DNA of 64,000 nt from positions 62,001 to 126,000 of the forward strand of contig JAGWMJ010000009.1 in NCBI GenBank assembly GCA_028871815.1, in the 5' to 3' direction. Positions 60,806 through 64,000 of the stretch are shown here, piece after piece. Both the position numbers and the translations under genes were made by a program. The notes under the pieces were generated by a model. The model was not told where the DNA came from and did no database searches. It was given only the letters and a program-made list of their open reading frames with translations. Each line of letters starts with the position of its first letter. The first letter of the stretch is position 1. The DNA comes from Armatimonadota bacterium. GTDB lineage: Bacteria; Armatimonadota; Chthonomonadetes; Chthonomonadales; Chthonomonadaceae.

Positions 60806-62149
60806 TTGAGCAAATCGAGACTAATCGGCGTTGTTGCCGCGACGGCGACCGTGTTTGTCGCTGGCTGTCACTCCGGCGGCGGTTCGGGCAGTAGCAGCTC
60901 TGCCGGCGGTACTACCCTTCACATCGCCTGGGCACAGTGGAAGCCGTCGGACTACCTTCAGACTGTTGCGAACGAATACACCAAGCAGACCGGTGTGAAG
61001 GTGGTGGTCGACCAGATTCCGTGGTCTCAATACCAGGACAAGATCACCACGGCATGGTCGGCCCACAGTTCTGCATACGACCTGATCGTGGGTGACAGCC
61101 AGTGGCTGGGTCTTGGAGCGACGCAGGGCCATTACGTGGACCTGACCGATTGGGCAAAAACACATGTGGACATGGCCGGAATGTCTCCGGCTGCGTTAAG
61201 CAAGTACGGTGAGTACCCGCCGGGCAGCGGGAAGTATTACGGCATGCCGTGCGAGAGTGACGGCATTGGATTCGCCTACCGGAAGGACCTCTTCGAGAAT
61301 CCAGCGGAGAAGGCGGCATTCCTGGCCAAATACCACTATCCTCTGGCGCCGCCTACAACCTGGGCGCAGTTCCGGGATATCGCCGAGTTCTTCACTCGGC
61401 CACAGCAGAAGTTGTACGGCTGCTCACTCTTTTACTCCAAGGAGTACGATGCGGTAACGATGGGTTTTGATCAGGTGCTTTGGTGCTATGGCGGCCACCT
61501 GAAAGATGCCAACGGGGTGGTGCAAGGAGTTATCAATTCGCCGACGGCCGTGAACGCACTCAAGTTCTATGCGCAGGATCTCAAGAAGTTCACTCCGCCC
61601 GGCTCATCCACCTACTACTTTAACGAAGATCTTGAGGCATTTGCCAGTGGCCAGACTGCTATGGTCGAAGACTGGTTTTCATTCATGCCGGGCTTTACCG
61701 ATCCGAACGGCAAAAACAAGAACTACCTGAGCAAAACCGGCTACTTTATCTCCCCGGCAGGGCCGGGCGGCCACTACATTCAGCTTGGCGGCCAGGGCCT
61801 CTCAATCTCCTCGTACTCCAATCAAATCCCGGAGGCCGAGAAGTTCCTGGAGTGGTTCGAAAAACCGGAGCAGCAGCAGAAATGGGCGCAGCTGGGCGGC
61901 CTGACGGCAACGCTGAAGGTGCTGAACTCACCGGCTTTCGATACCTACGCGCCGTATAACAAGGTCTTCTCCGAAAGTCAGAAGTACTTCCGCGACTTCT
62001 ACAACAATCCTGCGTACGCTGCTCTGTTGGATAGCTGCCAGAAGCACTGGAACGCAGTGGCATCCGGACTCGAAACGCCGCAGCAATCGCTGGATGCAGT
62101 GGCTCAGGAACACACGCAGATACTAAAGAGCGCGGGTCTGTTGAAATAG
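60806..62149 (+). CDS. Carbohydrate ABC transporter substrate-binding lipoprotein
   Basis: A 447-residue solute-binding protein. The lipobox is VAGC with Cys21 as the lipid anchor after a hydrophobic stretch (GVVAATATVFVAG), followed by a Gly/Ser linker and the typical LHIAWAQWKPSDYLQTVANEYTKQTGVKVVV start of MalE/UgpB-like proteins, then IVGDSQWLGLGATQG, PPTTWAQFRDIAEFF, VEDWFSF and the C-terminal EAEKFLEWFEKPEQQQKWAQLGG. The TTG is preceded by GAGGAGGAG and chosen over an earlier frame without family sequence. It is followed after 163 bases by the fused permease. The sugar is unknown. Confidence 0.93.
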   Translation: MSKSRLIGVVAATATVFVAGCHSGGGSGSSSSAGGTTLHIAWAQWKPSDYLQTVANEYTKQTGVKVVVDQIPWSQYQDKITTAWSAHSSAYDLIVGDSQWLGLGATQGHYVDLTDWAKTHVDMAGMSPAALSKYGEYPPGSGKYYGMPCESDGIGFAYRKDLFENPAEKAAFLAKYHYPLAPPTTWAQFRDIAEFFTRPQQKLYGCSLFYSKEYDAVTMGFDQVLWCYGGHLKDANGVVQGVINSPTAVNALKFYAQDLKKFTPPGSSTYYFNEDLEAFASGQTAMVEDWFSFMPGFTDPNGKNKNYLSKTGYFISPAGPGGHYIQLGGQGLSISSYSNQIPEAEKFLEWFEKPEQQQKWAQLGGLTATLKVLNSPAFDTYAPYNKVFSESQKYFRDFYNNPAYAALLDSCQKHWNAVASGLETPQQSLDAVAQEHTQILKSAGLLK

Positions 62150-62312: not shown

Positions 62313-64000
62313 ATGACCGACGGCGACACCGAAGCATCAACGACCGCGCGCCGCCGGCTGCCGGCTCTCTCAGACAGGTCTGTCGCCAACCTGTTCCTGC
62401 TGCCGACTATCCTTCTGCTGGTCGCAATGAATGTGTTTCCCCTTGTCTGGTCCCTGTACCTGGCATTTTGCCGTTACAGCACTATTTCCAACAATGGGCC
62501 GGTGTGGGTGGGCGGCGCAAACTTCTCCGCGCTCCTGACCGATCCGTCCGCGCATCAGAAGTTCACGGTAACCGCGACGTTCACGCTCTGCGCCGTCGGA
62601 ATCGAGATGGCAGCGGGCTTCTGCCTGGCGCTGCTTCTACACCGGGCATTCCGCGCCAAGGCGCTGATTACCACACTGCTGCTCTTGCCGATGATGCTTT
62701 CGCCCGTGGTGGTGGGCCTGTTCTGGCGCCTGATGTTCGACTCCACGACGGGTCTCGTCAACTTTCTCCTCCAGGCTGCCCACCTTCAGAACCCGCTTCA
62801 CCCGGTCAGCTGGCTTGGGCGGCCAGGCTACGCGATGGCGGCGCTGGTAATTACGGATGCGTGGATGTGGACCCCATTCGTAATGCTGATCTCATTGGCG
62901 GGCCTCAGCGCAGTGCCACCACACCTGTATGAGGCCGCCGAGGTCGACCGCGCATCCGTCTGGTTCAAGTTCCGGCACATCACGCTGCCTATGACGGCGC
63001 CGCTACTGATGGTTGCGCTCCTGTTCCGGACGATGGACTGCTTTAAGCTTTTCGACACCGTATTTGTCCTGACGTCCGGCGGACCCGGTTCCACCACGGA
63101 AACCGTCTCTTACAGCCTGTACAAACAGGCCTTCCAGTTTCACAACACCGGCGCCGCATGCGCGCTGGCGTATGTCATCCTGCTTGTAATCATCGGCCTT
63201 TCCAACATCTACATGAAGTGGCTGGCCCACATCCGCGGCGAAGGTACGGCAGATGACAGTTCACTGTGGTCCTCCACCGTTCAGCGCATCGCGCGTGGTA
63301 CCAGGCTGCGCAAGCTTGCCGAACGCCCCGACGCATTTGCAATCGGACTGGCCGCAGCGCTGATGCTTGTTCTGGGTGGTGGCCGGTGGCTTGTGCAGAA
63401 CGCTGCGGTCGCTGGTTGGTGCACCGGCGCCGTAGCATCGGTTGTCGCGCTGGTGTGGGTCGGTCAGTTGCTGCTGGCGCGCGCGCCAGCTTTGGTCCGC
63501 TCCGTGGTCCTCAACACACTGCTTCTTGGCGCCCTGGCGGCTTTTCTACTGCCGATCTACTGGATCACGGTCACCAGTTTGAAACCGCCGGTGCTGATCG
63601 ACAGCCTGACGCCACGCTTCATCTTCCATCCGACACTGGTCAACTACGGTTCACTGCTGTTTCACCACCTCAACGACGACCCGTCGGCAAGAATCACAGG
63701 ACTTTCGGCATTCCCAGTAAAGCTGTTCAACAGCCTGCTGATCGGTTTGGCTGCGACGGCGCTGGCCCTGCTTCTGGGCACTACCGCAGCCTATTCTCTG
63801 GCACGATTTCGGATCAAGGGAAAGTCAGACGCGCTGTTCTTCATCCTGAGCACGCGTATGCTGCCGCCCATCGTGGTCGTGATACCCATTTTTTTGATGT
63901 ACCGATTTCTCGGACTGCTGGATACGCGCCTGGGGCTCGTTATTCTGTACACGATGACCAACGTATCGTTTGCGGCATACCTGATGAAGGGCTTTTTCGA
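62313..64000 (+). CDS. Fused MalF-MalG-type sugar permease (3' end outside window)
   Basis: One open frame of at least 562 codons without a stop to the end of the window. The first half (about 1-320) is a MalF/UgpA-like permease: NLFLLPTILLLVAMNVFPLVW, PMMLSPVVVGLFWRLMFD, and the EAA motif EAAEVDRASVWFKFRHITLP (207-226). After a bridge with two extra hydrophobic segments (about 335-395), a MalG-like half begins: TLLLGALAAFLLPIYWITVTSLKPPVL, FIFHPTLVNYGSLLF, then LLGTTAAYSLARFRIKGKSD and LSTRMLPPIVVVIPIFLMYR. The second EAA motif would lie just beyond the window. The ATG lacks a good ribosome site. Normally these are two genes. Confidence 0.88.
   Translation, partial: MTDGDTEASTTARRRLPALSDRSVANLFLLPTILLLVAMNVFPLVWSLYLAFCRYSTISNNGPVWVGGANFSALLTDPSAHQKFTVTATFTLCAVGIEMAAGFCLALLLHRAFRAKALITTLLLLPMMLSPVVVGLFWRLMFDSTTGLVNFLLQAAHLQNPLHPVSWLGRPGYAMAALVITDAWMWTPFVMLISLAGLSAVPPHLYEAAEVDRASVWFKFRHITLPMTAPLLMVALLFRTMDCFKLFDTVFVLTSGGPGSTTETVSYSLYKQAFQFHNTGAACALAYVILLVIIGLSNIYMKWLAHIRGEGTADDSSLWSSTVQRIARGTRLRKLAERPDAFAIGLAAALMLVLGGGRWLVQNAAVAGWCTGAVASVVALVWVGQLLLARAPALVRSVVLNTLLLGALAAFLLPIYWITVTSLKPPVLIDSLTPRFIFHPTLVNYGSLLFHHLNDDPSARITGLSAFPVKLFNSLLIGLAATALALLLGTTAAYSLARFRIKGKSDALFFILSTRMLPPIVVVIPIFLMYRFLGLLDTRLGLVILYTMTNVSFAAYLMKGFF

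Follow-up and report, generated by a model that had tools for sequence, protein, structure and literature searches.

The permeases of CUT1 importers usually come as two separate polypeptides, an arrangement that is customary but not essential to the family. In Escherichia coli MalFGK2, two separate chains, MalF and MalG, carry the EAA loops and are served by a MalK-type ATPase with OB and TOBE domains; E. coli MalF also bears additional helices at its N terminus and a large P2 loop. In known structures, the C terminus of MalF and the N terminus of MalG are both cytoplasmic. The mycobacterial trehalose importer LpqY-SugABC, another CUT1 system, has one substrate-binding protein (SBP), and its permeases SugA and SugB are made as separate chains that no bridge connects. 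Two permease halves within one chain are found in FbpB (Thermus thermophilus, 9j4r), ThiP, and PhnU2. The glycerol-type importers encoded by glpSTPQUV in Rhizobium and Cupriavidus comprise an SBP, two separate permeases, a small membrane protein, and two ATPases (PMC7912956).

We analyzed a 64,000-nucleotide stretch of an Armatimonadota genome (the window, G000:C9:62001-126000), at the end of which a first-pass annotation had proposed that a MalF-type and a MalG-type permease half, joined by a bridge with two membrane helices and paired with one upstream lipoprotein, are encoded in a single open frame (62313-64000). Translation revealed no stop codon in this interval. The window end at position 64000 cuts the gene, and when the frame was extended into the adjoining genome sequence, a stop codon was found at window positions 64341-64343, completing a 676-codon open reading frame without internal stops (G000:C9:124313-126343, window 62313-64343). 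The extension also yielded a second EAA-type motif, and over the full-length protein Pfam matched BPD_transp_1 in two stretches. The proposed fusion, with its bridge and its upstream SBP, was thus upheld by the reading frame, the Pfam matches, the hydropathy profile, and the SBP lipobox (Table 1).

Table 1. Features of the fused permease gene and its operon partners, in window coordinates
Feature	Position	Strand	Evidence
SBP with lipoprotein-type signal and VFVAGC lipobox	60806..62149	+	Pfam SBP_bac_1/SBP_bac_8
MalF-type half, residues 1-310	62313..63242	+	Translation; BPD_transp_1; SugA match; six hydrophobic peaks
EAA motif of MalF half, EAAEVDRASVWFKFRHITLP	62931..62990	+	Alignment; Arg replaces the Gly of most CUT1 permeases
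Bridge, residues 311-395, in frame	63243..63497	+	Hydropathy; pN/pS; model helices
Bridge hairpin helices (predicted)	63339-63395 and 63420-63476	+	Hydropathy
MalG-type half, residues 396-676	63498..64000, running on to the stop at 64341-64343	+	Genome extension; SugB and MalG matches
MalK-type ATPase gene	64344-65435 (outside the window)	+	ABC_tran, OB_MalK, TOBE_2
Small protein with two transmembrane segments (2-TM), 96 aa	65435-65725 (outside the window; L009:5436-5726)	+	Two predicted helices; no Pfam match

Among solved structures, the closest matches by sequence were SugA (residues 19-304) and SugB (residues 398-675), followed by MalF and MalG. The MalF half is 32-34% identical to SugA over 277-285 residues, and the MalG half, which also matched MalG, is 32-33% identical to SugB. 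With the window-cut protein, the best NCBIfam scores for the first half were those of UgpA, MalF, and GlcT, and those for the second were of GlcU and MalG, all of them below cut-off. The models of the families in which fusion is familiar fell far short of their cut-offs: ThiP and PhnU2 scored 26-48 bits against 593-821, which places the protein outside the iron, thiamine, and phosphonate families. The EAA motif of the MalF half lies at residues 207-226, as annotated. In an alignment of fused proteins, E207, A208, and A209 are invariant in this half, as are E568, A572, A573, and D576 in the second motif. The protein therefore combines the MalF-type and MalG-type domains, BPD_transp_1 matches, and paired EAA motifs of CUT1 permeases in one polypeptide. 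The first-pass annotation had called the resulting channel pseudo-homodimeric. The single-chain part of this description stands; the homodimer part is loose, because the halves are clearly of MalF type and MalG type, and by its sequence the protein is a putative covalent pseudo-heterodimer.

We searched 291 genomes of this phylum for relatives and found fused permeases in 18 of them, in two clades. Clade A comprises full-length, uninterrupted fusions in ten genomes from three families (G000, G005, G008, G042, G066, G070, G072, G073, G075, and G195), with both permease halves in one chain (49-61% identity); an additional copy, in G069, is truncated where its contig ends and is not counted among the ten. 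Clade B (G258, G259, G260, G261, G262, G263, G289, and G290, the copy in G262 being cut and that in G260 matched only in part) is also fused and ∼30% identical. Within the phylum, the split genes closest to clade A are those of G083, G192, and G193, with more distant ones in G040. In G192 and G193, malF and malG share a frame and abut without a bridge, one stop codon apart. For clade B, close relatives with split genes were found in families f22, f11, and f42. In a motif survey, Arg took the place of the usual EAA-motif Gly in the MalF half, both in clade A and in the split relatives close to it; in families f15, f23, and f29, the MalG half too has Arg at this position.

Outside the phylum, the closest relatives among the matches listed were from Chloroflexota, Poribacteria, Proteobacteria, and Latescibacterota, with 41-64% identity per half. 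In a scan of named genomes covering at least 80 loci, none of the 79 two-permease loci among the matches listed was fused (0/79, against 18/291 within the phylum). Judged from these loci, of which there are at least 79, a fusion of this kind looks unusual for the CUT1 group, as the first-pass annotation had supposed. No earlier report of a natural MalF-MalG fusion was found in the largely open-access literature searched. Two poribacterial MalG relatives (L073 5896-7074 and L074 5880-7220) carry a long hydrophobic insertion that separates the first helix from the remainder of the domain, suggesting that this lineage has gained extra helices repeatedly.

Fusion arose at least twice in the phylum. 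A tree of the joined halves (66 rows) required two changes between the fused and split states, and its starred branches force two. When all fused rows were held as one clade, the log-likelihood fell by 603 (AU p 1e-10), and a single origin was rejected. In the tree of the MalF half, a single branch sets off each fused clade; resolution is lower in the tree of the MalG half. From the nesting of the fused clades among split genes, we infer that the change ran from split to fused.

The bridge has two hydrophobic peaks, at residues 343-361 and 370-388, in agreement with the two membrane helices originally predicted, and most fused proteins show a 6 + 2 + 6 arrangement of segments by hydropathy. 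With a slightly lowered hydropathy threshold, a two-segment hairpin was detected in 15 of the 16 fused proteins examined, with bridges of ∼60-95 residues. The exception is the clade B protein of G261 (L162), in which a charged soluble linker takes the place of the membrane hairpin. Because both natural termini are expected to be cytoplasmic, a MalF-MalG fusion needs either no extra helices or an even number of them, and both solutions occur. The suggestion that the bridge keeps the topology of the halves compatible therefore holds in that two helices leave the topology unchanged; the soluble linker of G261 indicates that a hairpin is unnecessary for this. In the close ortholog pair G066/G042, pN was 0.104 and pS 0.604 in the bridge (pN/pS about 0.17), compared with 0.016-0.019 and 0.46-0.49 in the halves, indicating that the bridge is translated and constrained, although less so than the halves. 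Profiles of the clade A and clade B bridges did not match beyond a short LPR-like end, so a common origin of the two bridges was dropped; the lack of a match is in line with separate origins. The idea that the bridge is an N-terminal extension of MalG was also dropped, as the profile comparison was empty and no such extension was present in the split MalG sisters examined. MalG proteins extended by extra helices do occur elsewhere in the same genome (L011 and L012).

An AlphaFold model of the whole protein had a mean pLDDT of 77.8 and a pTM of 0.78. It contained bridge helices at residues 339-353 and 364-390, the first at low confidence, with pLDDT below 50 across most of residues 338-372; across the models computed, the bridge has two helices of low confidence. 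The model aligned with FbpB (9j4r_A) over 473 residues along positions 38-668 (Z 31.3, rmsd 3.0), and its halves aligned with SugA (Z 24.6), MalF (21.9), SugB (21.1), and MalG (19.1). These alignments support a predicted pseudo-heterodimer inside one chain, with the two-halves-in-one-chain fold of the FbpB/ThiP type. FbpB differs in belonging to another sequence family and in having a shorter chain (490 residues, compared with 676 for the fusion, whose halves are CUT1). The fusion in turn differs from E. coli MalFGK2 in its two additional helices between the halves and in the absence of the N-terminal helices and P2 loop of MalF. Sequence and model thus describe a putative single-chain CUT1 permease with an FbpB-like architecture; its mechanism would be that of an ordinary importer, and the surprise lies in the repeated fusion with membrane hairpins.

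The gene order SBP, fusion, ATPase, small protein is found in G000, G005, G008, and G195. The SBP gene has a TTG start and a strong ribosome-binding site (start context GGAGGAGG), and the orthologs that precede the fused permease gene of G005, G008, and G195 are 54-57% identical. The TAA of the fusion directly abuts the ATG of the ATPase gene. The partners encoded here, a sugar-type SBP (SBP_bac_1) and a MalK-type ATPase (OB_MalK, TOBE_2), are those of a CUT1 importer. A sugar or polyol is a reasonable guess at the substrate class. In G042 (family f15), neither the ATPase nor the SBP gene adjoins the fusion, whose partners there are accordingly presumptive. The small 2-TM protein is homologous to a hairpin protein, mostly of 60-80 aa, encoded 3′ of malG in at least 14 proteobacterial loci. 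Within the phylum, it occurs in ten of the 291 genomes, nine with a clade A fusion plus the split relative G193, and its gene adjoins that of the ATPase even where the fusion lies elsewhere (G042, G072, and G075). Loci of the rhizobial relatives contain an SBP, two permeases, a small protein, and two ATPases, and so resemble glpSTPQUV, by gene make-up only (PMC7912956). The fusion system differs from the latter in having joined permeases and one ATPase gene rather than two.

The single frame could in principle be an artifact, if an assembly or sequencing error had merged two ordinary genes by erasing a stop codon or a frame boundary, as might be imagined from the two-gene state of the close relatives in G083, G192, G193, and G040. 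We give this explanation almost no weight and reject it, since ten genomes from three families carry complete copies of the same uninterrupted frame, the 60-95 codons of the bridge change in the manner of coding sequence, and no bridge lies between the abutting split genes of G192 and G193. An open frame might still give rise to two proteins, through internal initiation at the bridge or posttranslational cleavage within it; conservation within the protein is lowest in the bridge, and several in-frame ATG, GTG, and TTG codons lie at residues 351-398. We consider this unlikely. No Shine-Dalgarno sequence precedes any in-frame start codon around the bridge, on which ground an internal start for MalG was rejected; by eye, the alignment of fused proteins shows no evidently conserved start residue ahead of the MalG half; and the bridge is under purifying selection.

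A different question is whether the hairpin in the bridge represents the subfamily's small accessory membrane protein, captured between the permeases at fusion. Both are two-helix hairpins, and in alphaproteobacterial relatives a small hairpin gene lies directly 3′ of malG. However, the separate gene persists beside the ATPase gene in G000 and other fused genomes, and a comparison of the bridge with the small-protein profile was no better than controls; capture was accordingly rejected as highly improbable.

The fusion is very probably a single-chain CUT1 transmembrane domain that works with one SBP and a homodimer of the ATPase. MalF-type and MalG-type halves in one polypeptide of ∼14 predicted helices (6 + 2 + 6) would fold on each other as MalF and MalG do, creating a single translocation path. 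Each half would offer one EAA coupling helix to one ATPase of the homodimer encoded next door, and the upstream lipoprotein SBP would deliver the substrate. The fusion probably originated from neighboring malF and malG genes that nearly abutted, and a membrane hairpin lies at the junction. It is conceivable, if rather doubtful, that hairpins were gained independently at the two fusions for a function, namely to pin or regulate the single-chain channel, possibly in concert with the small 2-TM protein that co-occurs with it; in that case these proteins would constitute a distinct single-chain class of CUT1 importers.

Other unusual permease genes were encountered. On another contig of G000 (L012:4148-6655, minus strand, G000:C3), an SBP and a MalF-type permease share one 836-aa open reading frame (SBP_bac_1 plus BPD_transp_1); the MalG that comes next has several additional helices at its N terminus. 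Further SBP-MalF fusions in the phylum are suggested by long open frames that match MalF, and L125 (Omnitrophota) resembles such a fusion. Just upstream of the window (L011:5184-6335, plus strand, G000:C9) lies a gene for a 383-aa MalG-type protein that has one additional helix at its N terminus; no MalF was found among the open reading frames listed in the surrounding stretch.

Single-chain CUT1 permeases would allow the non-equivalent halves of the channel to be studied at a fixed 1:1 stoichiometry in one expressed protein. With two separate fusions in one phylum and split relatives that are a single in-frame stop codon away, the path from two genes to one is directly testable.
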